Source: Barnesiella sp. WM24 (GTDB lineage Bacteria > Bacteroidota > Bacteroidia > Bacteroidales > Muribaculaceae). From it: a stretch of 64,000 nucleotides of DNA. Location of the stretch: assembly GCF_004570975.1 (NCBI RefSeq), contig NZ_SPPC01000003.1:183102-247101 (forward strand), given 5' to 3'. The notes under the pieces are model-generated. The model did not search any database. It was not told the origin of the DNA and worked only from the letters and a program-made list of their open reading frames with translations. Of the stretch, positions 27,635 to 45,867 are shown in pieces (positions within the stretch are counted from its first letter, which is position 1; each line of letters begins with the position of its first letter). The translations under genes and the position numbers were made by a program.

Positions 27635-28864
27635 ATGGCATCAGTAAAGATAAAATTTCGTCAATCATCGGTCAACGGCAGGGAAGGGACACTGTTTTAC
27701 CAGATAATACATAACCGTCAAGTCAGGCAGATTTATACCGACATCCACATATATAATAATGAATGGGATGCGGAACGGTCGGTTATAATAACACTCTCTG
27801 ATACGGATACCGACAGGGCAAAGTATCTTGAATCGGCAAATATCACTATGCGAGAGGGATTGTCACGGCTTGCGGCAATAATCTCCGGGTTGAAAAGCAA
27901 AGGTTTGCCATATACTGCCGGCGAGGCTGTGGCGGCGTTTAACTCTCCTCTCACTGTAGTCGGGGTGGTGTCGTTTACGCGACGGCTGGTTTCAGACATG
28001 AGAAAGATAGGCAAGCGGTCGGCGGCAAAGCGTTTTGACATCTCTCTGAACAGCCTTCTGCGCTATACAGGCGGCAGTGAGGTGGCCTGGGATGACATGT
28101 CATCTACGTTTGTCCTCGGCTACGAGGAGTTTCTTGCAAGAAGGGGATTGTGTCGCAATTCAACTTCCTTTTATATGCGTAATCTTCGTGCGATTATGAA
28201 CCGTGCGGCAGAACATGGTTTCCCGACACCGTGTAATCTGTTCCGGCATGTCTACATGGGCGTTGACCGGACGGTCAAGAGAGGCGTGTCGCTTGACACA
28301 ATATGCCGGATACGTGATATGGATCTTGACGGACATCCGTCGCTCGATTTTGCCCGTAACATATTTATGTTTTCATTCTATACGAGGGGCATGTCGTTTG
28401 TCGACATGGCTTTCCTGAAGAAGAGCGACATGAGCTGCGGCGTGATAACTTACAAGCGCAGCAAGACACGCCGGCAGCTGCAGGTAAAGGTCGAGCCGGA
28501 AACGAGCAGAATCATGGAAAGGCTGGGGGAGTGTGGGTCGTCATACCTGCTGCCCATAATTACTGACGACGATTGTGACGAACGACATCAGTATGAGAAC
28601 GCTTACTCCCGGGTAAACAGGAATATCCAGAAAATAGGGGTAATGCTTAATCTCAGGGCTAAACTGACCCTTTATGTGGCGCGCCACGCCTGGGCAAGCA
28701 TTGCTCATGCCAATAATGTGTCGCTTGGTACAATCAGCAAGGCTATGGGGCATGACTCTGAAAGCACTACTTTAATATATCTCAGGTCGCTTGACACAAC
28801 TTCCGTTGACAAGGCAAACAGTGACATAATAAAGATGATGGGGAAAAAGAGAAAAAAGGAATGA
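27635..28864 (+). CDS. tyrosine recombinase (candidate DNA invertase of the adjacent switch)
   Basis: A 409-aa protein with an N-terminal Arm-binding region, a SAM-like core-binding domain (~110-210) and a C-terminal phage-integrase catalytic domain. Catalytic residues seen: Arg251 (FYTRGMSF), the Lys-bearing turn (YKRSKTRRQ), the box LTLYVARHAWAS (second Arg; the first His is Tyr, as in many Bacteroides invertases), MGHDSESTT, and the nucleophile Tyr382 (LIYLRS). The stop lies only 31 bp before an exact inverted-repeat pair that bounds a promoter, directly ahead of upxY. That places it as the enzyme inverting the switch. A mobile-element integrase is less likely, since no element genes surround it. 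Confidence 0.88.
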   Translation: MASVKIKFRQSSVNGREGTLFYQIIHNRQVRQIYTDIHIYNNEWDAERSVIITLSDTDTDRAKYLESANITMREGLSRLAAIISGLKSKGLPYTAGEAVAAFNSPLTVVGVVSFTRRLVSDMRKIGKRSAAKRFDISLNSLLRYTGGSEVAWDDMSSTFVLGYEEFLARRGLCRNSTSFYMRNLRAIMNRAAEHGFPTPCNLFRHVYMGVDRTVKRGVSLDTICRIRDMDLDGHPSLDFARNIFMFSFYTRGMSFVDMAFLKKSDMSCGVITYKRSKTRRQLQVKVEPETSRIMERLGECGSSYLLPIITDDDCDERHQYENAYSRVNRNIQKIGVMLNLRAKLTLYVARHAWASIAHANNVSLGTISKAMGHDSESTTLIYLRSLDTTSVDKANSDIIKMMGKKRKKE

Positions 28865-28965
28865 CTTGCGGATTTTGATTTGTAAGTAAGCAAGATTCTC
28901 CGGGAGAAACTGATGCAAGAAGACAATATTCTGTAAATCAGTCACTATAAAAAGACTTAACAGAA

Positions 28966-28995
28966 GGATATGCAAAACATCTGTTTTGCATATCC
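28966..28995. terminator. perfect hairpin inside the invertible cassette
   Basis: GGATATGCAAAACA and TGTTTTGCATATCC form a 14-bp perfect stem with a 2-nt loop. It lies behind the promoter within the cassette and stays between the promoter and the recombinase gene in the present orientation. It may block read-through from the recombinase gene into upxY, whichever way the cassette lies. No long T-run follows on either strand, so a protein-binding site is the alternative. Confidence 0.5.
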
Positions 28996-29070
28996 GATAT
29001 TTATAGCTAAATTAAAAGTGGCAAATGAAAATATAATTCACATAAGTATGGCTATTTCTAATATTTTGAC

Positions 29071-29078
29071 TAAATTTG
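29071..29078 (+). promoter_or_regulatory. invertible promoter, -7 element, ON orientation
   Basis: TAAATTTG is a perfect -7 element located 12 bp inside the right inverted repeat and directed toward upxY. The -33 region is weak. Inversion would point it at the recombinase gene's 3' end and leave the polysaccharide operon without this promoter. Confidence 0.65.
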
Positions 29079-29142
29079 CAATCACGAAAGTCAGTTTCTC
29101 CCGGAGAAACTGAGGAATACTTGTAGAAAATACAAAGAAAAA

Positions 29143-29293: not shown

Positions 29294-29830
29294 ATGGTGA
29301 CCTCGGAAAAACAATGGTTTGTAATGCGCGACCTGAAGCGCAGAACCTCCAATACACTTGCCATCCATGACCTGAATAAAGCAGGATTTGAGGTGTTTAC
29401 CCCTATGACGCAGAAAGTGATGACCATAGGCGGTCGGCGTCAGCGACGCGATGTCCCGGTAATTCAAGACTTGCTGTTTGTCCACGAAGCGAAAGATGCC
29501 CTTGACCCGTTTGTAGAAGCGTGTCCCACGCTTCAGTACCGGTATCTCCTCGGCAAGACAAAAGACGAGCCGATGACAGTGAGAGATAGGGATATGCATC
29601 GCTTTATGATTGCCGTTGACACCACTGACACCCCTCTGTATTATCGTCCGGGCGAAATCACCGAGTCGATGTATGGAAAGATGGTCCGTATCATCGGCGG
29701 TCCGTTAAACGACTACGAAGGTCGCCTTCTGTCGGTAAAAGGGATGAGAAAGCGCCGCGTGGTTGTTGAGATTCCGGGCTTGATAGCCGCTGCTGTCGAA
29801 GTTGATCCGGAATTTATACAGCCTGTATAA
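29294..29830 (+). CDS. upxY: UpxY-type NusG-like transcription antiterminator
   Basis: A 178-aa protein with a NusG N-terminal domain (KQWFVMRDLKRRTSNTLAIH; QDLLFVHEAKDALDPFV) and a C-terminal KOW domain (GKMVRIIGGPLNDYEGRLLS; RRVVVEIPGLIAAAVEVD). UpxY proteins are locus-specific paralogs of NusG that ride RNA polymerase through the polysaccharide operon and prevent early termination. It is the first gene after the invertible promoter and the leader terminator, exactly as in B. fragilis capsule loci. The start ATGGTGACC at 29294 precedes the NusG domain directly. Confidence 0.92.
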   Translation: MVTSEKQWFVMRDLKRRTSNTLAIHDLNKAGFEVFTPMTQKVMTIGGRRQRRDVPVIQDLLFVHEAKDALDPFVEACPTLQYRYLLGKTKDEPMTVRDRDMHRFMIAVDTTDTPLYYRPGEITESMYGKMVRIIGGPLNDYEGRLLSVKGMRKRRVVVEIPGLIAAAVEVDPEFIQPV

Positions 29831-30872: not shown

Positions 30873-31655
30873 ATGAGAAAAAAAGTATTTGCAGTTATCC
30901 TTTTCTGTTTTGGAGCTTACTTGTCAATATTAGCAGAAGAAGTTTCAGAAAATTCAGTAGTCAAAAATAATTGGGGAGAAAAACTTATAAGATCTCCGTT
31001 TGGTCTTGGTCTTGATCTCCAGACCAAATATGTGTGGCGAGGCATGGAGATGATGACTGAAGACTCTGCTCCGGTTCTATTTCCATCAGTAAATTATACT
31101 TATAAGAACCTCTCCCTATATATGATGGGGGCTTATGCAATTAATGGCAAATACGCAGAGGTTGACCTCGGTATCAGCTACACGTGGAAAGGGTTGAATA
31201 TCGGATTCAACGATTATTATTATCCGACAGTAGATGGTAAGGAAGACAAGTATTTCGGTGGAGGCAAGCATACAGGGCACTGGTTTGAGGGAGTCATAAC
31301 ATATGCACCGGAAAAAATTCCGTTTTGGATTACGGTCAGCAATTTCTTTGCCGGCGCTGACAAATATGTAAATGACGAAGGTAAAGAAAAACAAGCTTAT
31401 TCTACATACCTTGAATTAGGAACATATTATGACTTCCTTGATAACAACCGGGTGTCATTGACGGCAGGAGCTGCGTTGAACAAGTCTTGCTATAACAATT
31501 ACGAACATGACTTTTCTGTATGCAATCTAGAGTTCAAATATACATACAATTTAGTATTCAATAGCGGATGGAATCTGCCATTGAATGTTGCCTATATATA
31601 CAACCCGGTGTTCGACAAGGCGTTTATTAACTTTACAGCAAATTTCGCTTTTTAA
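30873..31655 (+). CDS. small outer-membrane beta-barrel protein of the choline module
   Basis: The start at 30873 opens the signal peptide MRKKVFAVILFCFGAYLSIL; ten codons before it are dropped. The mature ~240 residues are alternating beta-strands (GLGLDLQTKYVWRGMEMM; KGLNIGFNDYYYPT; LGTYYDFLDNNRVSLTAGAA) ending in Phe (FINFTANFAF), the signature of an outer-membrane barrel. About 200 bp separate it from the previous gene with no clear promoter; it is followed 4 bp later by the LicC-like gene. A porin role for choline or a related compound is inferred from the neighbours. Confidence 0.7.
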   Translation: MRKKVFAVILFCFGAYLSILAEEVSENSVVKNNWGEKLIRSPFGLGLDLQTKYVWRGMEMMTEDSAPVLFPSVNYTYKNLSLYMMGAYAINGKYAEVDLGISYTWKGLNIGFNDYYYPTVDGKEDKYFGGGKHTGHWFEGVITYAPEKIPFWITVSNFFAGADKYVNDEGKEKQAYSTYLELGTYYDFLDNNRVSLTAGAALNKSCYNNYEHDFSVCNLEFKYTYNLVFNSGWNLPLNVAYIYNPVFDKAFINFTANFAF

Positions 31656-31659
31656 AATA

Positions 31660-32532
31660 ATGAGCGAAAAAAAGATAAATGCGATAATTATGGCAGCCGG
31701 TACATCGTCTCGGTTTGTCCCGTTATCGGCTGAAATACCTAAAGGCCTTCTTGAAGTAAAGGGTGAAATCCTTATTGAGCGTCAGATTCGACAACTCAAG
31801 GAAGCCGGAATAACAGACATTACAATTGTAGTCGGTTACAAGGCTCACAAGTTTGAATATCTCAAGGACAAATATTGTGTCGAGTTGGTTCTTAATGAGG
31901 ATTTTAATCGATACAACAACACTTCTTCCATGATAAGAGTTCTTGACCGTCTCGGTAATACGTACATCTGTTCCTCTGACAATTATTTCCCGGAGAATGT
32001 ATTTATTGAAGAGCCTGAACATAGCTACTACAGTGCTCTTTATGCTAAGGGAGAGACCGGCGAATATTGTATCGTCACTGATTCCAACAACAATATAACG
32101 GGTGTAAGCATAGGTGGAAAAGACTCTTGGTATATGGTTGGTCATGTCTTTTTTTCCAAGGACTTCAGCTATGCTTTCAAGAAATTGCTGATTGAAGAAT
32201 ATGCAAAAGATGAAGTAAAGCAGGGATACTGGGAGGATGTCTATATCAGCCATATTAATCAACTGCCACAAATGTCAATGAGACGATATGCAGAGCATGA
32301 GATTGAAGAATTTGACTCAATTGATGAATTGAGATTATTCGACAAATCATATATCTCAGATACTCGTTCGTCTATTCTGAAGGAGATTGTCGGAAGAATG
32401 GAATGCAAAGAGGAAAATCTTTCCGGATTCAAGAAATTGAAAAATGATGGTGACTATCTTCTTTTTTCATTCCTGAAAGATGGTGTGGCTTACTGTTTCA
32501 ATGAATCAGACGACACCATAATTAAGTTATGA
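31660..32532 (+). CDS. LicC-like nucleotidyltransferase, probable CTP:phosphocholine cytidylyltransferase
   Basis: A 290-aa cytoplasmic enzyme starting at ATG 31660 (MSEKKINAIIMAAG); the longer frame overlaps the barrel gene. It has an intact nucleotidyltransferase signature MAAGTSSRFVPLSAEIPK, then VKGEILIERQIRQLKEAGIT and the metal-binding segment ICSSDNYF. LicC enzymes make CDP-choline from phosphocholine and CTP, feeding phosphocholine onto surface sugars. The genes after it encode a choline kinase fusion and a choline-type transporter, which supports that substrate over a sugar phosphate. It overlaps the next start by 4 nt. Confidence 0.8.
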   Translation: MSEKKINAIIMAAGTSSRFVPLSAEIPKGLLEVKGEILIERQIRQLKEAGITDITIVVGYKAHKFEYLKDKYCVELVLNEDFNRYNNTSSMIRVLDRLGNTYICSSDNYFPENVFIEEPEHSYYSALYAKGETGEYCIVTDSNNNITGVSIGGKDSWYMVGHVFFSKDFSYAFKKLLIEEYAKDEVKQGYWEDVYISHINQLPQMSMRRYAEHEIEEFDSIDELRLFDKSYISDTRSSILKEIVGRMECKEENLSGFKKLKNDGDYLLFSFLKDGVAYCFNESDDTIIKL

Positions 32533-34115
32533 AGACAGCCGTAATTCTTGCAGCTCGAAAAGAACGTGATTCCGAGATACCTTATCCTCTGCAACAATTT
32601 GCAGAGGGAATATGCCTCATGGATCGTAACCTTTCTATATTGAAAGATTGCGGATATGAGAATATCTATATCGTGGCTGGTTTCAGATATGATATGTTTC
32701 ATAAGTATCATGGTGATGGAGTCTCTGTAATCAACAATAATGATTATGAGTTCACCGCCTCGATGGGTTCTCTTGCCTTATGCAAGGATTTCATCAAAGA
32801 TGACTTCTTGCTTGTAGAAAGTGACACCTTTTTTGAAAAGAAAGTAGTGGAACAAGTGACGATAGTCACTGAAGGCAACTGCCTGTCAATGACAGAAGAA
32901 AGTGGTTCCGGCGATGAGTGTTTCGTGGAAACAAAGCACGGCTTTGTCACAAAAATCACAAAAGACCGTCATCGTGTCTGCAATTTCGAAGGAGAGATGA
33001 TGGGCATCACCAGAATCTCATTCAAGACTTTCTCAAGGATGATTTCTGCGTGGGAAAATTCTTCAAACCCATATCTGAATTACGAATACCTTCTGATGGA
33101 TGTGACCGAACCACTTGACCGCCCATATATACGGTTCAAGAATGTGATATGGGGAGATGTCGATTGCAGGGAGGATTTCAAAAAACTGCAAAATGAGGTT
33201 TATCGGAAACTCAGACGAAGAGAAAACCCATTTGATGAAGAAAATCTGAGAAGTCACCTTCAGAAGATTTTTGAAGACAAGGATATCTCAAAGGCCGAGA
33301 TTGTTAAAATCGGCGGTATGAGCAATAAAAACTTCAAGGTCACAATTGACGGAAAAAGCTATGTGCTTAGAGTTCCCGGCAACGGTTCAGAAGGTATGGT
33401 GGAGAGAACTAATGAGGAATTCAACGCGCTCGAAGCATGTAAGCTCGGGGTAAATCCTGAAATCAGATACTTCAATCCATATAATGGCATAAAGCTTGCC
33501 GATTTTATTGAGAACGCTGAAACGCTAAATGCCGCCACTATACAGCGTCATGACAATATGCGCAAGATTGCTGCGATTTACAGGAAAGTTCATAACTCAC
33601 ATATCCGATTGAAGAATGAGTTCAATCTGTTTCAAGAGATTGAAAAATACGATCGACTGTTGCTGAAGGCGGGAGCCACGATGTATGAGGGCTGGGAAAA
33701 TGTCAGGCCCCGTGTTATGACATTGGAAGGTTATCTGAATTCTCTTGGTGTTGATCTTAAACCCTGCCACAATGATGCACTTTATGAAAATTTCATCAAG
33801 TCAACAGATGGGACAGTATATCTAATTGACTGGGAGTATTCAGGCATGAACGACCCAATGGCAGACTTTGCCGCCCTGTTTATTGAGGCAGGGTTTGAAA
33901 AGGAGAACGAGGATTATATACTTGACAAATACTTTGAGGGGAACATACCTCCGGAAGCACGAGAGAAGATCCTGTGTTACCAGATTCTATGGGATTATCT
34001 TTGGTCCCAATGGACTGTAATAAAGGAAGCAAAGGGTGATGATTTCGGAACATACGGTATTGACCGTTTCAACAGGGCTATATCTAACTTGAAAAAAATT
34101 AATTTACAAAAATGA
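32529..34115 (+). CDS. nucleotidyltransferase-choline kinase fusion (LicCA-like)
   Basis: A 528-aa two-domain protein. Residues 1-~230 form a nucleotidyltransferase-like domain whose signature is altered: AARKERDSEIPYPLQQFAEG lacks the usual Gly-rich GxGTR pattern, although DFLLVESDTFF keeps the acidic metal site. Residues ~250-528 form a LicA/APH-type choline kinase: IGGMSNKNFKVTIDGKSYVL, the catalytic box CHNDALYENFI and the metal segment YLIDWEYSGMNDPMADFA. Such LicCA fusions are known from Treponema denticola. The kinase would make phosphocholine from choline and ATP. The altered N-domain may have another substrate or be inactive, since a complete LicC-like enzyme sits next to it. Confidence 0.82.
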   Translation: MKTAVILAARKERDSEIPYPLQQFAEGICLMDRNLSILKDCGYENIYIVAGFRYDMFHKYHGDGVSVINNNDYEFTASMGSLALCKDFIKDDFLLVESDTFFEKKVVEQVTIVTEGNCLSMTEESGSGDECFVETKHGFVTKITKDRHRVCNFEGEMMGITRISFKTFSRMISAWENSSNPYLNYEYLLMDVTEPLDRPYIRFKNVIWGDVDCREDFKKLQNEVYRKLRRRENPFDEENLRSHLQKIFEDKDISKAEIVKIGGMSNKNFKVTIDGKSYVLRVPGNGSEGMVERTNEEFNALEACKLGVNPEIRYFNPYNGIKLADFIENAETLNAATIQRHDNMRKIAAIYRKVHNSHIRLKNEFNLFQEIEKYDRLLLKAGATMYEGWENVRPRVMTLEGYLNSLGVDLKPCHNDALYENFIKSTDGTVYLIDWEYSGMNDPMADFAALFIEAGFEKENEDYILDKYFEGNIPPEAREKILCYQILWDYLWSQWTVIKEAKGDDFGTYGIDRFNRAISNLKKINLQK

Positions 34116-35623
34116 CAACTGAAAAAAGGGAAATAGATTGGGCGACTATGCTCATACCATTCGGGATTGTAATTGCAATGATGGCAGTATTCATGATTGC
34201 CCCGGAATCGTCCAAAAGCGTCGTCGACACCATGAGAGGTTTTTTCGGCGATACAATTGGCATTTATTATCCTTTGATTGCAATCGGAGCTGTGCTCTGC
34301 TCGCTATATATAGCGTTGACTCCAAAATATGGCAATGTGAAACTTGGCAACACCGACAAGCCTGCCTATAGCAACTTCAAGTGGGGTACAATGATTTTCA
34401 CCTCCACTATGGCCGCCGACATCATGTTTTATTCTCTGATTGAATGGGCACTATATGGTGGAGAGCAGCACGTTCATGAGCTCGGTGGCACACAGATGTG
34501 GGCACCGACCTTCACCCTTTTTCATTGGGGGCCGCTCGCATGGGGATTCTATGTGATTCTTGCTGTCTGCTTCGCCTTCATGATTCATGTGCGCCAGCGT
34601 CAACGTCAAAGATTCTCGGAGGCTTGCCGCCCGCTTCTCGGAGATAAGGTTGATGGATTTTGGGGTAAAGTTATTGACGTGACAGCAATCTTTGCAATCG
34701 TTTGCGCGACAGCGACAACATTCTCACTTGCCACCCCACTGCTGACAAATGCCATGGGCAGTGTCTTCGGATTTGAACCGACAACAGCAATCACGATTCT
34801 TGTACTGCTACTAATCTGTGCAGTCTACACGATTACAGTATTGTTCGGGATATCCGGGATAAGTAAGCTCGCGGGCATATGCTCATATCTGTTTTTTGCG
34901 ATATTGTTGTATTTCCTATTCCTTGGAGGAGAAACAGGATATATCATCGAGACCGGCTTCCAGTCGTTTGGCAACATGATTCAAAACTTCATCGGGCTAT
35001 CCACTTATATGGATCCTCTCCGCGAAAACGGATTTGCACAGAACTGGACGGTTTATTACTGGGCATACTGGCTTGTTTGGTGTGTCGCCACGCCATTCTT
35101 CATCGCCATCATCTCGAAAGGTCGCACAATCCGGAATGTTGTATGGGGTTCTTTCGGCTGGGGACTTGCCGGAACCTATCTGTCGTTCATAATTCTTGGA
35201 AACTACGGTCTCGCGCAGCAGATGAAACATGGAGTCGATGCAATCGGCCATATAGGAGCCGGAGGTGAGATGTATGAGGCAATCCTTATGATATTTGACA
35301 CACTTCCCCTTCCATGGCTTGCGCTTATCCTGCTAACAATCACAATGATTGCCTTTTATAGCACCACACTCGACGGCATTACCTATGTGACATCATCTTA
35401 TAGCTACAAACAGATAGCTCCCGATGAAGAACCATCGCGCAAAATACGCGGTTTCTGGAGCATAATGTTGATTCTTTTACCGATAGCACTGCTATTCGCC
35501 CAGAACTCGCTTTACAGTTTGCAAGGAGTGACAATCATAGCCGCCTTCCCCGTAGGAATCCTCCTCATCCTCATAGTAATCAGCTTCTTCAAAGACTTCA
35601 AAAGCTGGAGCCGCCAAAAGTAA
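34112..35623 (+). CDS. BCCT-family choline/betaine-type transporter
   Basis: A 503-aa inner-membrane protein with about 12 hydrophobic helices. The tryptophan-rich segment NWTVYYWAYWLVWC matches the core of the betaine/carnitine/choline transporter family, and the C-terminus is short and basic. BCCT carriers import quaternary amines with Na+ or H+, or exchange them. Its start overlaps the stop of the choline kinase fusion by 4 nt, so import, phosphorylation and CDP activation are encoded together. Choline is the most likely substrate. Confidence 0.9.
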   Translation: MTTEKREIDWATMLIPFGIVIAMMAVFMIAPESSKSVVDTMRGFFGDTIGIYYPLIAIGAVLCSLYIALTPKYGNVKLGNTDKPAYSNFKWGTMIFTSTMAADIMFYSLIEWALYGGEQHVHELGGTQMWAPTFTLFHWGPLAWGFYVILAVCFAFMIHVRQRQRQRFSEACRPLLGDKVDGFWGKVIDVTAIFAIVCATATTFSLATPLLTNAMGSVFGFEPTTAITILVLLLICAVYTITVLFGISGISKLAGICSYLFFAILLYFLFLGGETGYIIETGFQSFGNMIQNFIGLSTYMDPLRENGFAQNWTVYYWAYWLVWCVATPFFIAIISKGRTIRNVVWGSFGWGLAGTYLSFIILGNYGLAQQMKHGVDAIGHIGAGGEMYEAILMIFDTLPLPWLALILLTITMIAFYSTTLDGITYVTSSYSYKQIAPDEEPSRKIRGFWSIMLILLPIALLFAQNSLYSLQGVTIIAAFPVGILLILIVISFFKDFKSWSRQK

Positions 35624-35631
35624 CCGAAATT

Positions 35632-36366
35632 ATGTCAGAAGACAAAAATACCATGGAGTCCCCCTATTCCGAGGGACTCCGGCAATCGTTGACTCCTGCG
35701 GTTATAAAGAAGGTTCGTAGGGATCTTGGTTCGGACAACTCGTCAACTGTCGGTAATAATATCCTTGATATAGCTGCTGGATTTATTCCGGTAATTGGAC
35801 TCGTAAAAGCCAAGACTTCATTTCATGGTTATAGGGATTACAAGACTGCAAAAAAGTTGCTGAAATTTATGGAGACTTTTTCCCAAGAAGACTATAATCC
35901 GGAAGAATTGGACGACATGGCTCACGAGATTCAGAATATCAACTCTGAATCATTGTTCGAGAACATGATGGATATTCTTGACAGAATTGACAATGCAAAC
36001 AAAGCCGTTATCTTAGCCAATATACTTCGCCATAGCATAAAGGGAGACATTTCCCGCCCAAACTATCTAAGACTTTGTTGGATAATAGCCAATGTCCCGT
36101 ATATCGACCTTCTGCAATTGCATAAATACAGAACCGACTTTTATGAACCGTCTTCAACTGAAATCCTATCGGCCAATGGGCTGATTCACGAGACAGTGAT
36201 TGACGGAGGTGAATTTGATGCAGAAGATTCAGATAAAGGAGGTAGCAAATTCGGACTCTCTCCATTGGGCGAAGAGATGCTTCACTATGGCCTTTACAAC
36301 ATAGACTGGCAATATAACGGTGTCGGAAGACAGGTTCCGAATCCCAAATGGCGTACCATTAAATAA
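35632..36366 (+). CDS. hypothetical protein between choline and polysaccharide genes
   Basis: A 244-aa protein that I do not recognise. It has no signal peptide; a mildly hydrophobic stretch (NNILDIAAGFIPVIGLVKAK) lies near residues 40-60. Helical segments follow (NPEELDDMAHEIQNINSESL; ANKAVILANILRHSIKG), and the C-terminal part resembles a small winged-helix pattern (STEILSANGLIHETVI; KFGLSPLGEEMLHYGL). It lies 8 bp after the transporter gene and 33 bp before the flippase, so it is probably in the operon, but no role in polysaccharide synthesis is evident. Confidence 0.6.
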   Translation: MSEDKNTMESPYSEGLRQSLTPAVIKKVRRDLGSDNSSTVGNNILDIAAGFIPVIGLVKAKTSFHGYRDYKTAKKLLKFMETFSQEDYNPEELDDMAHEIQNINSESLFENMMDILDRIDNANKAVILANILRHSIKGDISRPNYLRLCWIIANVPYIDLLQLHKYRTDFYEPSSTEILSANGLIHETVIDGGEFDAEDSDKGGSKFGLSPLGEEMLHYGLYNIDWQYNGVGRQVPNPKWRTIK

Positions 36367-36399
36367 ATACACTGATTCGATTTAATATCAAAATTAGTA

Positions 36400-37848
36400 A
36401 TGGCTGAAGATTTAAAGAAAGAAACGGCCAAAGGCGTAATTTGGAGTGGTGTTGATAGGTTTGTGAGTGGAGGGATTGTCTTTCTTGCAAATATTGTTCT
36501 TGCACGCCTTCTGACGCCTAAGGATTTCGGTCTACTGGCAATTATTGCCATATTTGTGCAGATTTCGCAGACTTTCATCGACAGCGGATTCGGCAATGCG
36601 TTAATCCAAAAGAAAGATAGGTCACAGACTGATTACAGTACGGTTTTTTTCTTCAATCTTGCCTTGTCAATAGGATTCTACATTGTCCTTTATTTCTGTG
36701 CTCCGTTTATAGCAGAATTCTTTGAAAACGAGAAACTGACGGTTCTAACAAGAGTCGTTGGGCTTAATCTTATAATCGGAGCTCTCGTCTCAGTCCACAA
36801 AACAAGATTGACCATACAACTAAAATTCAAGATTCAGGCTGTTATATCATTGATTTCTTCATTTGCGTCAGCGACAGCAGCGATATGGATGGCTTATCAC
36901 GGCTACGGAGTTTGGTCATTGGTGGCATTGACAATTATCAACATTGCACTTCAGGTTACACTTATATACATTATGATAAGATGGAGACCGTCAATGATAT
37001 TTTCAAAAACAGCATTTAAATCACTTTTCTCATACAGTTCCAAACTCTTGGGAGCATCGCTGATTCACCTATTATATAGAAATATATATCCAATCATAAT
37101 AGGGAAGAAGTTTTCAGCGATTGATCTTGGATATTTTAATAGGGCCGATACATTTGCAATGTATGTACCATACACAATTGGCTCAGTGATTTCAAGGGTG
37201 GCTTTCCCCATTTTCAGTCGAATCCAAGATGATAACACTCGGTTAAGAAAGGCCTATTCACAATATATAGTTTTTACATCATTGTTTATATTCCCTCTCT
37301 TGGTAGGAATAATCGTATTGGCAAGACCTTTAACATTAGTAATTCTTAAAGAACAATGGCTTCCCATGGTTCCTTTGCTTCAGATTCTCTGTATAGACTG
37401 GATGTCAGACCACCTATGTTCCATAAATTTAAATGTACTATATGTTAAAGGCAGATCCGATCTTGCTCTGAGACTGGAAATCGTAAAAAAAGTTTTAGCA
37501 ATAATTATATTTTTTGTTAGCCTTTACTGGGGAATAATAGGTGTATGTTGGGGGCGAGTTGTATATGGAGCGATAGCGGTATATCTAAATTCATATTACA
37601 CTAAGAGACTGATTAATATAGGCATAGACCAACAGTTAAAAGATATTCTTATACCATTAGGGCAATCTTTGTTAATGGGTGTCGTTGTTTTTATTTTTTC
37701 AAATATGATTCATTGCTCAATAGTATTGAACTTGATATTTTCAATATTAATTGGAGCATTGTCCTATTTGGGAATTATTGCTTTGACAGGCAAAAAATAT
37801 TACTGCGAAATACTTCCATTGTTAAAGACTATAATGAGAAGAGGTTGA
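36400..37848 (+). CDS. Wzx-type polysaccharide flippase (MOP family)
   Basis: A 482-aa membrane protein with about 14 hydrophobic helices. Its N-terminus KKETAKGVIWSGVDRFVSGG and the segment LARLLTPKDFGLLAIIAIFV are typical of WzxC-like lipopolysaccharide/polysaccharide exporters. It would flip the undecaprenyl-linked repeat unit across the inner membrane in a Wzy-dependent pathway, together with the EpsG-type polymerase at 39978. It is the first polysaccharide-assembly gene after the choline module. The AT content rises from here through about 41.1 kb, as is usual for exchanged capsule genes. Confidence 0.9.
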   Translation: MAEDLKKETAKGVIWSGVDRFVSGGIVFLANIVLARLLTPKDFGLLAIIAIFVQISQTFIDSGFGNALIQKKDRSQTDYSTVFFFNLALSIGFYIVLYFCAPFIAEFFENEKLTVLTRVVGLNLIIGALVSVHKTRLTIQLKFKIQAVISLISSFASATAAIWMAYHGYGVWSLVALTIINIALQVTLIYIMIRWRPSMIFSKTAFKSLFSYSSKLLGASLIHLLYRNIYPIIIGKKFSAIDLGYFNRADTFAMYVPYTIGSVISRVAFPIFSRIQDDNTRLRKAYSQYIVFTSLFIFPLLVGIIVLARPLTLVILKEQWLPMVPLLQILCIDWMSDHLCSINLNVLYVKGRSDLALRLEIVKKVLAIIIFFVSLYWGIIGVCWGRVVYGAIAVYLNSYYTKRLINIGIDQQLKDILIPLGQSLLMGVVVFIFSNMIHCSIVLNLIFSILIGALSYLGIIALTGKKYYCEILPLLKTIMRRG

Positions 37849-37874
37849 AAATTTAAATCAGTTGTTCATTTATT

Positions 37875-39179
37875 ATGAAAAGTCTACTTAAATCACTATT
37901 GTATTTTTTTCTAAAAGACAGAATGTATATATTGCTGAATAAACGTAGGTTTTATCTTTATCGAGGGAAAATGCTTCGAAAAGCAAAAAAATATAATTGT
38001 TCAAAGAACAAGATTATCGAATTGATTTCAAATAAAGATAAAATAAGGATTCTATTTTTTGTCTATAATTTAGGGATGTGGAAATACGAGGGTCTTGTCA
38101 GGTTATTGTTAAGCCATCCAAAATTTGAGCCAATAATTGTTCCATTTGCAATGCCTGAGAATAGACCTAAATTTAATCGGTATAATCAAGAATGTATTAT
38201 AAATTATTGTAAAGACAACAATTTCCCATTTAAAATAGGATACGATGCCTGTAGCAATGAATATAACGACTTAGAAGGAATTGATCCGGATATAGTCGTA
38301 TATACCCAGCCATATAATACAGGATATGAAAAGTGGAGAATTGATAGATATCTCAAGAATTGTTTGTTTATATATACGCCGTATGGGTTATCTGTTACGA
38401 ATGATAAAGTTCTGTATGATACATATCTTAATAATATAGCGTGGAAAATTTTCGCATCATCTCCTATGGAGAAGGCTGTATTACAAAAGGCCATTACAAC
38501 AAGAATTAACATTGTAGTGACCGGTGCTACATTATATGACCAACTTAATCAGGCATATAGTCAAAAATCTCCATGGCGTAATAATAGAAAGAAAAGAGTT
38601 ATCTGGGCGCCACATCACTCAATGGATAGTAAATACTCTTTTTCAAGTTCAAATTTTGAAAGAATTTGTTCAGACATGATAATGCTGGCAAACAAATTTC
38701 AAGATACAGTTGAGTTCGCTTTTAAACCGCACCCAATATTGAAAGAGCGACTAATAGAGAAGTGGGGAAAGGAAAGAGCTGACTCGTATTATACTTTATG
38801 GGAAAGTATGCCAAACACAATGATATGTTTGGGGGCTTATACCGAACTTTTTGCATTTTCGGATGCTATGATTCATGATTGTGCTTCATTCGTAGGTGAA
38901 TACCTATACACAAACAAGCCGGTAATGTACATATATAAGGACAGAATCCCACCGGCGAGTGTTGATAATGAGTTCGGTATTGGTTGTTTCAATTGTCATT
39001 ACCACGGACATTCGACAAATGATATTGAGGAGTTCATCACAAACGTGGTTTTAAGAGGAGAAGATACAATGAAAGATAAAAGAGGCGAATTCGCTCAAAC
39101 ACAGCTTTTTCCACCTAATAACCTTTCAACGGCAGAAAATATGTTAAACGAATTGGAGGAATTATTAATTGCCCACTAA
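37875..39179 (+). CDS. CDP-glycerol glycerophosphotransferase-like protein; candidate phosphocholine transferase
   Basis: A 434-aa protein of GT-B type, related to the TagB/TagF family that transfers alcohol phosphates from CDP-linked donors. Seen are a basic amphipathic N-terminus likely to touch the membrane, VIWAPHHSM (~240), EFAFKPHPIL (~280), and SDAMIHDCASFVGEYLYTNK (~335), matching the paired His/Asp sites of the family. The locus makes CDP-choline but has no LicD. This enzyme, which belongs to a family using CDP-activated phospho-alcohols, is therefore the best candidate for adding phosphocholine to the glycan. Glycerol-phosphate transfer is the conventional alternative, but no CDP-glycerol synthase (TagD) gene is present. 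Confidence 0.7.
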   Translation: MKSLLKSLLYFFLKDRMYILLNKRRFYLYRGKMLRKAKKYNCSKNKIIELISNKDKIRILFFVYNLGMWKYEGLVRLLLSHPKFEPIIVPFAMPENRPKFNRYNQECIINYCKDNNFPFKIGYDACSNEYNDLEGIDPDIVVYTQPYNTGYEKWRIDRYLKNCLFIYTPYGLSVTNDKVLYDTYLNNIAWKIFASSPMEKAVLQKAITTRINIVVTGATLYDQLNQAYSQKSPWRNNRKKRVIWAPHHSMDSKYSFSSSNFERICSDMIMLANKFQDTVEFAFKPHPILKERLIEKWGKERADSYYTLWESMPNTMICLGAYTELFAFSDAMIHDCASFVGEYLYTNKPVMYIYKDRIPPASVDNEFGIGCFNCHYHGHSTNDIEEFITNVVLRGEDTMKDKRGEFAQTQLFPPNNLSTAENMLNELEELLIAH

Positions 39180-39189
39180 TAAATAACAG

Positions 39190-39972
39190 ATGATGATCAC
39201 TTTAGCTCCTGAAATCCCTAAAATGATACATTATTGCTGGTTTGGAGGAAAACCGTTGCCTCCATTAGCCCAAAAATGCATCGCATCATGGAAAAGATAT
39301 CTTCCGGATTATGAGATAAAACAATGGGATGAGTCAAACTTCGATGTTAACATAATCCCATACACAAGTCAGGCATATGAGGCAAAAAAATACGCATTTG
39401 TAAGTGATTTTGCCCGGATATGGTTGCTTTACAAATATGGGGGGATATATTTTGACACAGATGTTGAAGTCATCAAGCCATTGGATAAAATAATCTCTGC
39501 AGGTCCTTTCATGGGTTGTGAGAATAAATTTGTTCCAAACATGCCTCCAGTAAATCTGCATATTAATCCTGGTCTTGGATTGGGAGCGACACCCATGATG
39601 AATATTTTTCATGAATTGTTGGAATTGTATAGTTCTCTTCAATTTATAAAAGAAGACGGCTTTTTAAACCTTAAAACAATTGTTGAATACACATCTGAAC
39701 TTTTTGTACAACATGGATTAACGAACAGTCCCGATATTCAGAAGATAGAAGGAGTCAACATCTATCCTTGGGACTATTTTTGCCCGATGACACCTACCCT
39801 AATAATGACTCTAACAGAAAATTCGGTAACAATTCATCATTATTCAGCATCATGGGAAGATGGAAAAGTGAGGTTTCGTAGAAAAATTAAAAGGTTGTTG
39901 GGTAGTAATATCATAAAGTACATTCAACCTGTAGTTGAAAAAATTCATAAACTCATCCGGATTTTTCACTGA
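39190..39972 (+). CDS. GT32-type glycosyltransferase (OCH1-like)
   Basis: A 260-aa cytoplasmic glycosyltransferase with the family opening IPKMIHYCWFGGKPLP, the conserved block AKKYAFVSDFARIWLLYKYG and the DXD metal-binding motif in GGIYFDTDVEVIKPLD (Asp-Thr-Asp near 95). Near the end, HHYSASWEDGKV is also typical. It would add a sugar from a nucleotide donor to the lipid-linked repeat unit; the sugar cannot be read from sequence. Met2 (39193) is an alternative start. Confidence 0.88.
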   Translation: MMITLAPEIPKMIHYCWFGGKPLPPLAQKCIASWKRYLPDYEIKQWDESNFDVNIIPYTSQAYEAKKYAFVSDFARIWLLYKYGGIYFDTDVEVIKPLDKIISAGPFMGCENKFVPNMPPVNLHINPGLGLGATPMMNIFHELLELYSSLQFIKEDGFLNLKTIVEYTSELFVQHGLTNSPDIQKIEGVNIYPWDYFCPMTPTLIMTLTENSVTIHHYSASWEDGKVRFRRKIKRLLGSNIIKYIQPVVEKIHKLIRIFH

Positions 39973-39977
39973 TAAGA

Positions 39978-41126
39978 ATGTACCCCTATTTTGATTATAG
40001 TTCATTAATTCTGTATGTATTGATTGGATTGTTCAGTTCGTACATGATTGACATCAGTATCAATTATAAAAAGAATTCAACATATACACGACAGACAGGG
40101 TATATTTGCTTCTACATAATTTTCGTGACCTTAGCTTCACTGAGGCTAATAACTTTTAATGGTATTGGAGGTATTGACGCATTTGAATATGAAAGACTTT
40201 TCTTGAATGCACTCTCATCAGATTCCCGCTTCGAGGAACAGGACATTTTGTTTGGACTATTTAATAAGACTATAAGGTTCTTTATTGAAAGCCCGGTAAT
40301 ATACAGATTTATATGTTATTCAATAATAACCCTTGCATATATATATTTCATAAAATCTTTTTGTAAAAAGGGAGTATCATGCTTGCCGTTCATTGTCTTG
40401 ATGATTCCGTATTTGAAAAGCTTCAATACAATGAGGTCAAGTATAGCGATAGCGGTTATACTATGCGGACTGGTATTATTGAAGGATAGAAGAACTCTTT
40501 TGGGAGTAATATTGATTTGCACATCTGTTCTTATCCACAGAATGTCAATATTATATGTGCTGTTTTTGCCATTTTACGCGATATTCAGACATTATAAGTA
40601 CACAAATTCCAATATAAAACTGATTATTGTAATATCGACACTTACAATAATAGGTTATTATCTCGCATTACAAGTTCAACAGTATGCAATCGCATTAAGT
40701 CTATTAGACGGTGCTGACGCATATTACATCTCAAAAAATTTAAATGGCTCTATACTGGATGCAGCCGTAACGGTAATACCATTGATTCTGCTTTCTGTTA
40801 TGTGGCTGCTATGCAATAGGAGATTGAAATATGACAAGAGCATTTCATTTTTAGAGCTGATGATCTCATTTGACATCATCATCACCCCTATAGCCAATAT
40901 ATTGGGGATGTGGAGAGCTAATGAATATTTCTATCTCGGACGGTTGGTGTTTTGGTCTTATCTTATTCCGGTATATTGCTCCGGCTTTAAGGTGCAGAGC
41001 CGAGTAATTATCAAAATTTTGTTGGCAATATTATTTACGGCATGGCTGACATATCGCATAACCCGCGAATGGGAACCGTGTGGACTGATGCCGTATAAAT
41101 TTTTTTTCAATGATTTGTACACGTAA
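39978..41126 (+). CDS. EpsG-family polysaccharide polymerase (Wzy-like)
   Basis: A 382-aa membrane protein with about 10 hydrophobic helices. It shows EpsG-family features: an early periplasmic loop with [15 protein letters not shown] and later [20 protein letters not shown] with an Arg in the membrane-edge segment. EpsG/Wzy proteins join repeat units at the outer face of the inner membrane. Together with the Wzx-type flippase it indicates a Wzx/Wzy pathway. No chain-length regulator (Wzz) is visible in the locus. It overlaps the next gene by 17 nt. Confidence 0.82.
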
Positions 41127-41679
41127 GGAGCTAAGGGAATGGCTTCAAGCCGACCATAACGCTTTTGGATTCAAGTATCCTCTGTTGGCTAAATTTTCGT
41201 GGAGTGAAAACGGAACAATGTTCGCCTATGTCCGTAACCTCCGATATTTGGAATATTATACCAACAAAGCTCAAAAGCCGTGGGATAGGTTATTCCGGTT
41301 ATGGCATTTCATCAAATGGAGACGGATGAATCTGAAGCATCAGTTGTATATAAAGCCGAACTGTGTGGGACCGGGGCTTCATATCGTGCATCATGGCTAT
41401 CGCAGGATTGATTCGGTGAAGAGTATAGGCAGTAACCTGACGATTCTTCCGATGGTTCTTATCGGAAAGAAAACGCCCGATGCCGACATAGACAAATGCA
41501 CCATCGGCAACAATGTTTACATAGGCGCAGGAGCAGTCATAATGAATCCGGTAAATATCGGCGACAATGTGATTATCGGTGCCGGTTCTGTAGTGACAAA
41601 AGATGTGCCATCGAATTGTATAATAGCTGGCAATCCAGCAAAAATAATAAGAGACTTATCTAATACATCAAATGACTAA
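41110..41679 (+). CDS. hexapeptide-repeat acetyltransferase (CysE/LbH-type)
   Basis: A 189-aa acyltransferase. A helical N-terminus is followed by left-handed beta-helix hexapeptide repeats ([55 protein letters not shown]) and the usual end [11 protein letters not shown]. The catalytic His lies in HIVHHGY. Capsule-locus members of this serine-acetyltransferase-like group O- or N-acetylate sugars of the repeat unit with acetyl-CoA. The start overlaps the polymerase gene by 17 nt; a later start is possible but would trim the helical part. Confidence 0.85.
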
Positions 41680-42673
41680 GCGAAAGGTTTTCCAGTTGAA
41701 CACTGAGCTATATAAGGTTACGGGGATTCAACGTGTATTGCTTGACATTCAGGAGGCTCTGAGAGATGATTTTGAAGCCAAGATTGTAGGCAATATTCCA
41801 TATGGTAAGGTTAATGGCAGCCTGGGAATATCCGGGGATGATTATCTTAGGTTCAGAAATCCTTTTATGTTCCGCAACTCCATTGTCATTATTCATGAAC
41901 GGAGGTTACTCCCTCTAATGTGGTTGCTTGGGCATATTCCAGGTTTTAACGTGAAGTGTGTTTATGTCCATCACAATGAGCTTTACGGAAACAAGCGACT
42001 GTCACTTTTTCCGGAGAATATCGTAGCCATATCGGATGCCGGAATCAGAAACCTTACGGATTATTTCGGAGTATCGCCCGCCAACATAACTAAGATCCAC
42101 AATTGCGTCCGCGAGACTTTCCCTGATGTGTCACGAACAAAGAAGTTTGATCCTAACAATATAACCATTCTTTATCCGGCTCGTATAAATTCCGTTAAAC
42201 GGCAGATTGAGATTGTAAACCATCTGAAAGGCAAGCTTGACCCTCGCGTAAGGATTCTGTTTGCCGGAACCGGGCCACAATATGAAGAACTTGAGAAGCT
42301 TTGCAGAGACTGTGATCAGTTCAAAGCATTAGGGTTCAGGGATGACATACCAAGCCTTATGGGACAATGTGATTTCATGATGTTATTCTCAAAACATGAG
42401 GGACTGCCTATTTCGCTTATCGAGGCATCTCAGATAGGATTACCTGCTATTTGTAATAATGTAGGAGGGAACACTGAAATTGTGAAGGATAATGTCAATG
42501 GTATTGTTGCTGATGATTGGGATAATTTGATTGCTGCATTGAATCATCTGTCGGACACTAAACAATCTGACATGGACATGATGGCCCGTCAGGGAAAGAA
42601 AATATATGAAAACAATTTCAATTTTGGTATTTTCAAAAGGAAATACTGCGATTTAATCAATAGATTGAAATAA
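41672..42673 (+). CDS. GT4-family glycosyltransferase
   Basis: A 333-aa GT-B glycosyltransferase with the C-terminal GT4 pattern: [38 protein letters not shown] and [20 protein letters not shown], the last with the E-x7-E nucleotide-sugar-binding motif. It acts in the cytoplasm on the lipid-linked repeat unit. It overlaps the acetyltransferase by 8 nt and touches the next start by 1 nt (TAATG). Confidence 0.9.
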
Positions 42674-43866
42674 TGCCAATTCTTGCAAAACCACAGAATT
42701 GTACAGGCTGTGCAGCCTGTGGCAATATATGTCCGCACGACGCAATTATGATGACGCAGGACAATGACGGTTTTATCATGCCTGTCATCAATCCTGGCAA
42801 ATGTGTCGAATGTAAACTTTGTGAAAAGGCTTGCCCCATCGTAAACGGTAAGTATTTAAAGAATCCGGAGGTCAAGGAGGCTTATGCCTTTTGGGATAAC
42901 AATACACGTACTGAAAGCAGCTCGGGGGGAGCATTCTCGGCGATTGCTGATTGGATAAGGAAACGCGATGGGGTCGTTTTTGGTGCCGCATGGCACGATA
43001 GTTTCCAGTGTTGCCATATTGGAATTGAAGAAGGAAAAGACTTCGCCATGTTACGCGGCTCAAAGTATCTTCAAAGCGACGTACGGAAGACATTTGCTGA
43101 AGCACGCGAAAAACTAAAGGAAGGTAAATATGTACTCTTTACCGGCACACCTTGCCAAATAGCAGGGTTACGCTCGTTTTTAATAAAATCGTATGAGAAG
43201 CTTATTACGATTGATATCGTATGTCATGGAGTCCCTTCCAATATTCTCTTTTCAAATTACATCAAGAAACTAAAATCTGAATACCCGCAATATTCATCAG
43301 CGGATGGCTTTGAATTCAGAAATCTTCGGGGTTGGGGCATTGCTCCAACCCCGAAGAAAGGGAATTGCCGCATGAAGCCTCTCACTGGAGTTGCCAACCT
43401 TTACATGGCAGCTTTTGACAAAGGTGCGATTTTCAGGGAGTCATGTTATGACTGCCAATTTAATGGTTTATCAAGAGTCGGCGACATCACAATCGCTGAT
43501 TTCTGGGGTATCGGAGCATTCGGAAAACCCTTTAAACATGATGTTTCTAAGGGAGTGTCTTTGGTCCTTGTAAACTCTAAGTCCGGGAGGGAAATCCTTG
43601 AGAATCTGAAAAATTGCTTCATAGAAAAAAGAGAACTTCAGGAGGCAGTTAAACGGAATCACAATTTAGTAGCATCTACTGATAAACCTCCATATAGAAA
43701 TGAACTTATCAAGTCGTTCAACAATCCAGAAATTACACTGAGGGATATAAACACTCGATTCAATCTGAAAGGTACCGGTATGAAAGACAACGTAAAAGAC
43801 TTGCTGATTTCGACTGGCGTATTTTGGATCGTCAAATCAATTGTCAACAAACTTAGAAGCATATGA
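42673..43866 (+). CDS. F420H2-dehydrogenase beta-subunit-like iron-sulfur protein of polysaccharide loci
   Basis: A 397-aa protein with two N-terminal 4Fe-4S clusters (CTGCAACGNICP and CVECKLCEKACP). They are followed by the FrhB/FdhB-type flavin domain (SSSGGAFSAIADWIRKRDGV; FTGTPCQIAGLRSFL; DIVCHGVPS; ITIADFWG). Members coded beside pyruvyltransferases in surface-polysaccharide loci are thought to reduce a sugar or another precursor with flavin; the exact reaction is not established. The stop overlaps the pyruvyltransferase start by ATGA, so the pair is translationally coupled. Confidence 0.88.
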   Translation: MPILAKPQNCTGCAACGNICPHDAIMMTQDNDGFIMPVINPGKCVECKLCEKACPIVNGKYLKNPEVKEAYAFWDNNTRTESSSGGAFSAIADWIRKRDGVVFGAAWHDSFQCCHIGIEEGKDFAMLRGSKYLQSDVRKTFAEAREKLKEGKYVLFTGTPCQIAGLRSFLIKSYEKLITIDIVCHGVPSNILFSNYIKKLKSEYPQYSSADGFEFRNLRGWGIAPTPKKGNCRMKPLTGVANLYMAAFDKGAIFRESCYDCQFNGLSRVGDITIADFWGIGAFGKPFKHDVSKGVSLVLVNSKSGREILENLKNCFIEKRELQEAVKRNHNLVASTDKPPYRNELIKSFNNPEITLRDINTRFNLKGTGMKDNVKDLLISTGVFWIVKSIVNKLRSI

Positions 43867-44939
43867 AAGTCGGCATATTGTCCATGCAGCAGATAACGAA
43901 CTATGGATCGTTTCTGCAAGCATATGGACTTAAATCAATTTTGGAAAGATTGGGACATGATGTTGAGTTTGTCAATATCGTTCCAGGTGAACAGCTTCCG
44001 CAATATAGAATTGGGAAACTTCACAAAGTTAATCTGATGCTTAAGCGTTTGAAAGTGAAGCATCCCCTTCGTCAACTTCAATGTACCCTAAAGTTGCACA
44101 GACGATTTGACAATGAATTTAAACCGGAACTCGGAGTTAAAGAGGGGAAAACAGAAACTCGTTTTGATGCTGTCGTAATCGGTAGTGACGAGGTTTTCAA
44201 TGTAGCACAGACCACATGGTTCGGCTTCTCTACTCAATTGTTTGGCGAAAACTTGAATGCTGATAAAGTTATAAGTTATGCCGGATGCTTTGGAGCTACG
44301 ACGATCGCAAAACTGAAAGAACTTGGCATAGACCGCCGAGTCGGAGAACTGATGGCGAGAATGGATGCAATTTCAGTCAGAGACAAGAACAGCGTTGATA
44401 TTGTCACTTCACTTACCAACGTAGAACCGAATCTCAATGTTGACCCTGTCATAGCCTATGGATTTGACAATGAAGTCAGACTTCCTGATATAAAAGATGA
44501 GTACCTCCTTGTCTATACATATCCCGGAAGAATGAACAATTCTAAAGAGGTTAAAGCCATAACGGCTTATGCCAAAAAGAAAAATCTGAAAATTGTTGCA
44601 GTTGCTAACTATTTTGACTGGGTTGACGAGGTTGTGACTCCTCATCCGTTTGAAGTGCTCGGCTATTTCAAACGTGCAAGTTGTATAGTCACTGACACAT
44701 TTCATGGTGCGGTTATGTCTCTCAAGTTCAATAAGTCATTTGCTGTGATTGTAAGAGGAATGAACAGCAACAAGTTAACTTTTTTATTGGAACAATTCAA
44801 TCTTGACTCAAGGATAGCAGAAAAGGCTGAAAATATAACTGGAATTTTGGAAGAGAAAATTGACTATGTACCGGTTAATGCAGCGATAGAGCGGGAGAAG
44901 AAAAACACAGTGGATTACTTAAAATCTAATTTGGAATGA
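43863..44939 (+). CDS. polysaccharide pyruvyltransferase family protein
   Basis: A 358-aa enzyme of the CsaB-type pyruvyltransferase family (PF04230): opening MKVGILSMQQITNYGSFLQA, then FDAVVIGSDEVFN, ISVRDKNSVDIV, and the late segment SCIVTDTFHGAVMSLKFNKS with the conserved D-T-F-H-G-A. The family transfers pyruvate from phosphoenolpyruvate to make ketals on surface sugars, giving a negative charge. It is paired with the iron-sulfur protein before it. Confidence 0.9.
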   Translation: MKVGILSMQQITNYGSFLQAYGLKSILERLGHDVEFVNIVPGEQLPQYRIGKLHKVNLMLKRLKVKHPLRQLQCTLKLHRRFDNEFKPELGVKEGKTETRFDAVVIGSDEVFNVAQTTWFGFSTQLFGENLNADKVISYAGCFGATTIAKLKELGIDRRVGELMARMDAISVRDKNSVDIVTSLTNVEPNLNVDPVIAYGFDNEVRLPDIKDEYLLVYTYPGRMNNSKEVKAITAYAKKKNLKIVAVANYFDWVDEVVTPHPFEVLGYFKRASCIVTDTFHGAVMSLKFNKSFAVIVRGMNSNKLTFLLEQFNLDSRIAEKAENITGILEEKIDYVPVNAAIEREKKNTVDYLKSNLE

Positions 44940-45120
44940 ATGTAAAAAGTAATCCAATACATCAGCCATTTTTCCCAGACTCCATTGCCTTTGAAAAGCA
45001 ACGGATATATATACGAGTTTGGCAATATTGATATCGATAGCTGATACTTATCGAAAAGGGTATCTTTTCTATCGTCACCTGATTTCACATTTTTCCATAT
45101 AATTTATTTATCCTGATTTT

Positions 45121-45867
45121 ATGAATAACCGTGAGTTTGTGAAAAAAATCGCAGACTCTGCCTTGGCATATCCCGACAGCACTTTCGCTGAGGGGAATGG
45201 GCGAGTAAATACGTGCGTAAATCCATACTCCTATCATCTTGTGCGCCGTCATCCGGAATTATACGGATCAATGGATGGACTTTTTGTAGATGGCATGACT
45301 ATGTGTTGGTTAATCCGTTTTTTATGGGGAAAGCGTGTGCCGAGGCTAAGTTTCGATATGTCTGGCATGGCTGTTGATTTATTTACGTATCTAAATGACA
45401 AAGAGACAAGTCGAAGTATTTATTTCTTAGGAACGAAACAAGAAATACTTGAATCAACGGTCAAACAGTTTCATAAAAGCTATCCCGAAATGAAAATTGC
45501 CGGTTATCGCAACGGCTATTTCATTGACAATGATGACAGGAAAAGTGCGATTAAGGAAGTCGTGGATATTGACAGCGATTTTACTATCATCGGCATGGGG
45601 TCTCCATTGCAAGAACAATTTGCTCTCGATTTGAAAAATGCCGGCTACAAAGGGATTGTATTCACATGCGGAGGGTTCCTCCACCAATCCGCCAACAGTA
45701 TCAACTATTATCCTGATTGGGTAAATAAATACAACCTTAGGGCCTTCTACCGTCTTTTCCACGAAAGAGGCTTATGGGGCAGGTTATATAATGTCTTGAT
45801 TGAATTCCCAATACTATTCACATGGGACACATTATGTACAAAAGTATTTATGAGATATAACTTTTGA
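45121..45867 (+). CDS. WecG/TagA/CpsF-family (GT26) glycosyltransferase
   Basis: A 248-aa GT26 enzyme: VDGMTMCWLIRFLWGKRVPR (early catalytic block), IYFLGTKQEILE, FTIIGMGSPLQEQFALDL and FTCGGFLHQSANSINYYPDW. In known pathways it adds an N-acetylated mannose-type sugar to undecaprenyl-PP-GlcNAc as the second step of repeat-unit assembly. No initiating phosphoglycosyl transferase is seen in this window, so the first step must be encoded elsewhere. It is separated from the previous gene by 181 bp with no clear promoter and is followed by the locus terminator. Confidence 0.88.
   Translation: MNNREFVKKIADSALAYPDSTFAEGNGRVNTCVNPYSYHLVRRHPELYGSMDGLFVDGMTMCWLIRFLWGKRVPRLSFDMSGMAVDLFTYLNDKETSRSIYFLGTKQEILESTVKQFHKSYPEMKIAGYRNGYFIDNDDRKSAIKEVVDIDSDFTIIGMGSPLQEQFALDLKNAGYKGIVFTCGGFLHQSANSINYYPDWVNKYNLRAFYRLFHERGLWGRLYNVLIEFPILFTWDTLCTKVFMRYNF

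Follow-up and report, generated by a model that had tools for sequence, protein, structure and literature searches.

A Lic-1-like choline cassette in a probably phase-variable polysaccharide locus of Muribaculaceae, with a TagF-like protein as plausible phosphocholine transferase

Introduction

Which enzyme would attach phosphocholine to a surface polysaccharide when the locus that encodes synthesis of the CDP-linked donor contains no LicD? This question is raised by a gene cluster in Barnesiella sp. WM24, found in what we call the window, meaning the whole stretch of DNA that was analysed (64,000 nucleotides, from a genome of 3.49 Mb in 40 contigs). Expression of the Lic-1 pathway of Haemophilus influenzae switches on and off. 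In Lic-1 (licABCD) of H. influenzae and Streptococcus pneumoniae, LicA, LicC and a choline importer are encoded together (PMC10434233), and their probable counterparts are encoded together in the window as well. An earlier note, made from the sequence of this DNA, had predicted a switchable, phosphocholine-decorated glycan and had proposed that the product of the gene at 37875 may have taken over the role of LicD.

Results

A choline cassette in a polysaccharide locus

The following features of the window carry the argument:

27635..28864, + strand: tyrosine recombinase of the type responsible for promoter flipping in Bacteroidales capsule loci (Phage_int_SAM_5, Phage_integrase, Arm-DNA-bind_5)
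28893..29111, no strand: presumed invertible promoter segment with two inverted arms (inverted repeats and promoter box)
29294..29830, + strand: UpxY-type NusG-like antiterminator (Pfam NusG, 26.9 bits)
30873..31655, + strand: barrel-like outer-membrane protein, cassette gene 1, candidate choline pore (no known family)
31660..32532, + strand: LicC, CTP:phosphocholine cytidylyltransferase (S. pneumoniae LicC 1jyk, E 2.5e-33)
32529..34115, + strand: fusion of a PntC-like domain (about 1-230) with a choline kinase (about 242-522) (Pfam, PDB)
34112..35623, + strand: BCCT transporter, probable choline importer replacing LicB (Pfam BCCT, 393 bits)
36400..37848, + strand: Wzx-type flippase (Pfam Polysacc_synt_3, 312 bits)
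37875..39179, + strand: TagF-like protein, proposed phosphocholine transferase replacing LicD (Pfam PF04464, 32.8 bits)
39190..45867, + strand: remaining polysaccharide locus, with glycosyltransferases, a probable Wzy, an acetyltransferase and FrhB-like, pyruvyltransferase-like and WecG/TagA-like proteins (names partly read off the sequence)

The earlier note had described the barrel, LicC, fusion and BCCT genes as one overlapping cluster behind upxY. All of these open reading frames were found at their positions, with 4 bp overlaps at LicC/fusion and at fusion/BCCT. The nucleotidyltransferase signature of LicC (AAGTSSRF...PKG) is intact in the window as well as in the aligned homologs, and the fusion has a choline kinase as its C-terminal half (Pfam Choline_kinase, 88 bits; S. 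pneumoniae LicA 4r77, E 4e-63), so the window's genes supply both of these Lic-1 enzymes. The 34112-35623 product belongs to the BCCT family, with choline as its probable substrate. The barrel-like protein, labelled from its sequence pattern alone, had no match in Pfam, NCBIfam or PDB; it is 64–74% identical to 14 cassette homologs and 40% identical to that of locus L058, and its gene constantly adjoins LicC or the fusion in cassette loci. A 244-aa open reading frame at 35632-36366, between BCCT and wzx, had no Pfam, NCBIfam or phage match, and has no counterpart in locus L010. The only enzymes for CDP-linked donors detected within the window's locus are the choline ones, with no additional one found in 39190..45867. 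The locus resembles the Lic-1 pathway in its working but has no LicD within it.

A presumed promoter switch

Upstream of the cassette, the inverted arms (28893-28913 and 29091-29111) are 21 bp each and 95% complementary, and enclose a single TAnnTTTG promoter box (TAAATTTG) at 29071 that is directed at upxY. The features of phase-variable Bacteroidales capsule loci, namely a recombinase gene, inverted repeats around a promoter and UpxY, are all present, the promoter being represented by this one box. The assembly shows the segment in one orientation only, which would presumably be the ON state if the box at 29071 is correct, and the locus is probably phase-variable, by presumed promoter inversion. 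Each arm is itself nearly palindromic (TTCTCC[C/G]GGAGAA), and no other copy of this motif was found in the window or in the loci fetched.

Conservation of the cassette across Muribaculaceae

The cassette (barrel, LicC, fusion, BCCT) occurs in 19 loci of the family Muribaculaceae. Since barrel, LicC and fusion follow each other in this order in all 12 named loci and in further genomes too, the arrangement is not a product of chance; BCCT comes next in each named locus except L019, where the contig ends. Choline kinase is present in 15 of the 397 family genomes, and the genomes in which relatives of the fusion occur bear the name Muribaculaceae or 'Porphyromonadaceae'. Wherever the position is visible in a cassette locus, a true LicC is there. 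In three genomes (G675, G691 and G597), LicC, an unfused kinase, BCCT and LicD stand in a row, amounting to a plain Lic-1 operon plus the barrel, which makes the fused PntC-like domain optional. In G683, barrel, fusion and a DMT-type transporter reach a contig end, and another contig opens with a probable transporter end, LicC and LicD coming next; we infer that the two contigs join.

Other arrangements and damaged copies were also observed. Loci L059 and L060 hold a complete barrel-licC-licA-bcct-licD operon outside polysaccharide loci, beside leuS and phage-like genes. BCCT is split by a frameshift in G529 (L056 11595-13105), and the G762 fusion carries an in-frame TAA stop (G762:C10:24003-25577, L048); each could be a broken cassette copy or an assembly error.

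Taken together, the identities of LicC and the LicA-like kinase and the conservation of the cassette support well the proposal that choline import, choline phosphorylation and CDP-choline synthesis are encoded within a polysaccharide locus that can probably be switched.

The PntC-like half of the fusion

In its N-terminal half, the fusion resembles PntC, an aminoethylphosphonate cytidylyltransferase (6pd1, E 5e-19), which requires Arg15, Lys25 and Lys153 (PMC6697681). Consistent with this homology, none of the 16 full-length fusion homologs, the most distant of them 46% identical, has lost the Lys153 position (the Lys of SKNR/TKDR) or YE, and all or almost all retain ESD and SGDE. However, the GXG(T/S)R...PK signature is missing in 16/16, its loop, where Arg15 and Lys25 of PntC sit, reading LAARKER...PYPL or similar. 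A second functional cytidylyltransferase was rejected on this ground as improbable. Because the half keeps the substrate site while lacking the pyrophosphate loop, it is probably a binding or regulatory domain. Of the "cytidylyltransferase-choline kinase fusion" described earlier, the LicA-like kinase half stands, while the cytidylyltransferase-like half lacks its catalytic signature. A LicC::LicA fusion of Collinsella aerofaciens (L229, WP_320678046.1), beside a DMT transporter and about 7 kb from a LicD, likewise joins a cytidylyltransferase to a choline kinase; in its LicC half, however, the signature is intact, and this half is the counterpart of the window's separate LicC rather than of the fused domain.

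LicD and TagF-like genes alternate in cassette loci

LicD accompanies the cassette in 14 of the 19 loci (L013, L015-L021, eight in all, and those of G727, G675, G691, G597, G683 and G529), a TagF-like gene does so in two, and neither is visible in three. As LicD is alongside in most loci, the cassette is tied to glycan decoration. LicD adjoins the cassette in G727, G675, G691 and G597, lies on the presumed next contig in G683, and in G529 is found some 13 kb downstream, where the locus holds a TagD::MocA cassette as well; the LicD match of L021 is weak (48 bits). The three loci in which neither transferase was seen are L011, L012 and L014, the contigs of the latter two ending early.

The two loci with the TagF-like gene are those of the window and of L010, in a genome (G715) of a different genus; in both it follows wzx, and LicD is absent from the locus. 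In the set of genes compared, the two loci share barrel, LicC, fusion, BCCT, wzx (69% identical) and tagF (46%) and no others; the window's Wzx is 77% identical to that of L012. No cassette locus has both transferases (0/19), and the TagF-like gene was not found in the other 17 cassette genomes searched.

On the genome scale, TagF-like genes showed no excess with the cassette (2/15 cassette genomes versus 44/382 others), so that the co-occurrence expected for 37875 homologs was not borne out and the case for 37875 rests on the within-locus alternation. The earlier note had held that its proposal would fall if a LicD elsewhere kept company with the module while 37875 homologs did not. Half of this pattern was found: most other genomes have a LicD within the cassette or adjacent to it, and homologs of 37875 show no overall enrichment with the cassette. 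Its statement that LicD is absent holds for the window, but there is one in the same genome, on contig C36 (G000:C36).

The 37875 product is a remote relative of TagF

The 37875 product had been called CDP-alcohol phosphotransferase-like, an identity we reject because its only match is PF04464 (CDP-glycerol:poly(glycerophosphate) glycerophosphotransferase), of which it is a distant member (32.8 bits against a cut-off of 22.1) and which 12 of 12 homologs match as well. It had no match to the LicD family PF04991, and a PDB search by sequence returned nothing. By profile comparison, its donor-binding half matches a bona fide PF04464 protein; the counterpart of TagF H584 is probably H286, in an invariant FKPHP. 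For TagF H444, no invariant histidine was found in the N-terminal half of the 37875 family, a region that could not be aligned. Given the low confidence of the AlphaFold models (pLDDT 63.9 and 55.5), we used their fold class alone; that of 37875 (pLDDT 55.5) best matches GT-B-type proteins including TagF (3l7k, E 3e-6). By sequence, the protein is a remote PF04464 member, to be named TagF-like and not TagF.

Compared with the TagF-like capsule polymerases of Gram-negative bacteria (PMC5974469) and Staphylococcus epidermidis TagF (3l7i), it matches PF04464 in the donor-binding half and probably keeps the position of the second catalytic histidine (KPHP), but it is a single 434-aa protein without the polymerase partner domain, and the first catalytic histidine was not found. 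The same genome encodes a second, better PF04464 protein (138 bits; L063 9629-10903), whose gene adjoins a wzx with 51% identity to that of the window; no gene for a CDP-linked donor was recognised nearby.

Donor enzymes beside TagF-like and LicD genes

TagF-like genes occur in 46 of the 397 family genomes. A CDP-donor cytidylyltransferase lies within 12 kb in 24/32 TagF-like loci and 20/29 LicD loci, compared with 2/17 control loci (Wzx loci without TagF-like or LicD). For TagF-like versus control loci the Fisher p of 4.5e-5 is too small, because the loci, partly close relatives and best-scoring matches, are not independent. The 24 partners comprise 12 NTP_transferase::CobD-like, five TagD::MocA, four TagD, two TarI and one Ppm, and the LicD loci show the same five donor types. 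In two loci (L056 13121-15501 and L129 12327-14754), the TagD::MocA fusion stands beside a PhnW-like aminotransferase, and the pair is predicted to lead to a CDP-2-aminoglycerol (serinol phosphate) donor.

On the TagF tree, proteins with the same donor type tend to group together (14 changes versus a shuffled mean of 21.6; 0/200 shuffles as low), and the two choline-linked TagF-like proteins share one five-member clade, yet the protein closest to the 37875 product (G451, 56%) is encoded in a TagD locus without the choline cassette. Donors thus change within the TagF-like family, and the donor is best judged from the local cassette.

A single LicD elsewhere in the genome

The LicD on contig C36 (L062) is the only one in the window's genome. 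LicD is common in the family (185/397 genomes), so its mere presence says little. It comes after wzx in an operon (L062 9344-14523) of an NTP_transferase::CobD-like fusion, an octopine-dehydrogenase-like gene, wzx and LicD, which probably makes a CDP-amino-alcohol. Other partners of the NTP_transferase::CobD-like gene are LicD in L070 and TagF-like genes in L127, L128 and others; in 12 other loci it is the donor gene nearest the TagF-like gene. In the phylogeny, the C36 LicD falls just outside the choline-linked LicD group B, and belongs to a set of ten rows, with support 95, in which seven are choline-linked. In the L010, L012 and L014 genomes, the LicDs lying on other contigs form one group (50–66% identical); they were considered as a dedicated choline LicD and rejected, and two of them adjoin TagD/Ppm-type cytidylyltransferases.

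Discussion

From its sequence, the cassette is best read as serving phosphocholine decoration of a polysaccharide that is probably phase-variable. Choline would enter via the barrel and then the BCCT carrier and be phosphorylated by the fusion's kinase half; LicC would convert the phosphocholine to CDP-choline. The 37875 protein would move phosphocholine from CDP-choline onto the lipid-linked repeat unit, which Wzx would then flip, and an invertible promoter would switch the locus. This reading as a whole, a Lic-1 pathway in which an unrelated TagF-type phosphotransferase has displaced LicD, has in our estimate an even chance of being right. The genomic context favours the LicD role that the earlier note had assigned to 37875 (LicD in 14 loci, TagF-like in two, never both, and TagF-like genes tied to CDP-donor enzymes), and the activity is predicted. 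Among single explanations for the transferase, displacement ranks best, with roughly even odds; against it stands the finding that the choline cassette and a TagF-like gene meet in two loci only.

The main rival is a LicD acting in trans: the cassette would make CDP-choline, the C36 LicD would attach phosphocholine to its own glycan or to the window's, and 37875 would use another donor. That the genome has exactly one LicD, phylogenetically beside choline-linked LicDs, is consistent with this. However, that LicD shares an operon with its own donor cassette, the window's locus would be left with no transferase for its own donor, and in four other cassette genomes without an adjacent LicD the non-adjacent LicDs belong to other groups, mostly beside TagD, TarI or Ppm. 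We consider this explanation unlikely.

Less likely still, 37875 could make a different phosphodiester, for example from CDP-glycerol or the CDP-amino-alcohol of C36, with CDP-choline passing to an unrecognised protein or to a lipid such as phosphatidylcholine. The TagD locus of its nearest relative points this way, and the L011 cassette, with neither LicD nor TagF-like gene, indicates that some loci need another answer. On the other hand, no TagD-like glycerol-3-phosphate cytidylyltransferase was recognised in the window's genome, whose PF01467 proteins resemble CoaD, NadD and RibF in length, place or sequence, apart from one of 388 aa with a poor TagD score, and this makes CDP-glycerol an unlikely donor for 37875; and LicD in most cassette loci suggests glycans rather than lipids as the destination of CDP-choline. 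Decay, in which LicD was lost and CDP-choline is made without purpose, is very improbable: cassette copies do break, as in G529 and G762, but the window's cassette genes are all intact and its fusion shares 73–81% identity with 12 homologs of other genomes over the whole length.

Under the displacement reading, the locus would be a new variant of the Lic-1 pathway, with a plausible assignment of the transferase to 37875. It differs from Lic-1 (PMC10434233) in having BCCT and a barrel-like protein for LicB, a kinase fused to a PntC-like domain, a TagF-like protein for LicD and presumed promoter inversion. The O-antigen cluster of Proteus mirabilis O18 likewise places lic genes within a Wzx/Wzy cluster beside wzx, but there licD overlaps wzx, whereas the window has the TagF-like gene after it (PMC8027243). 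In the literature searched we found no PF04464 member using CDP-choline and no glycan phosphocholine transferase besides LicD (PptA being a separate enzyme for proteins), and a search for phosphocholine with Muribaculaceae or Bacteroides capsules gave nothing.

We tentatively propose, at a little short of an even chance, that 37875 is the first TagF-type phosphocholine transferase and that, in Muribaculaceae, LicD and TagF-like proteins can replace one another as terminal modules for a set of CDP donors. If so, the donors would include choline, glycerol types, a ribitol type, a phosphonate type and a CobD-linked amino-alcohol type, and swapping one of the two parts, donor cassette or transferase, would reshuffle surface phosphodiesters. 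Prediction of phosphocholine capacity from genomes would have to change if there is a second, unrelated glycan transferase. The window's host belongs to a gut family, and TEPC-15-type antibodies and C-reactive protein both recognise phosphocholine, so that a commensal with a phosphocholine coat that can be switched would bear on host recognition.
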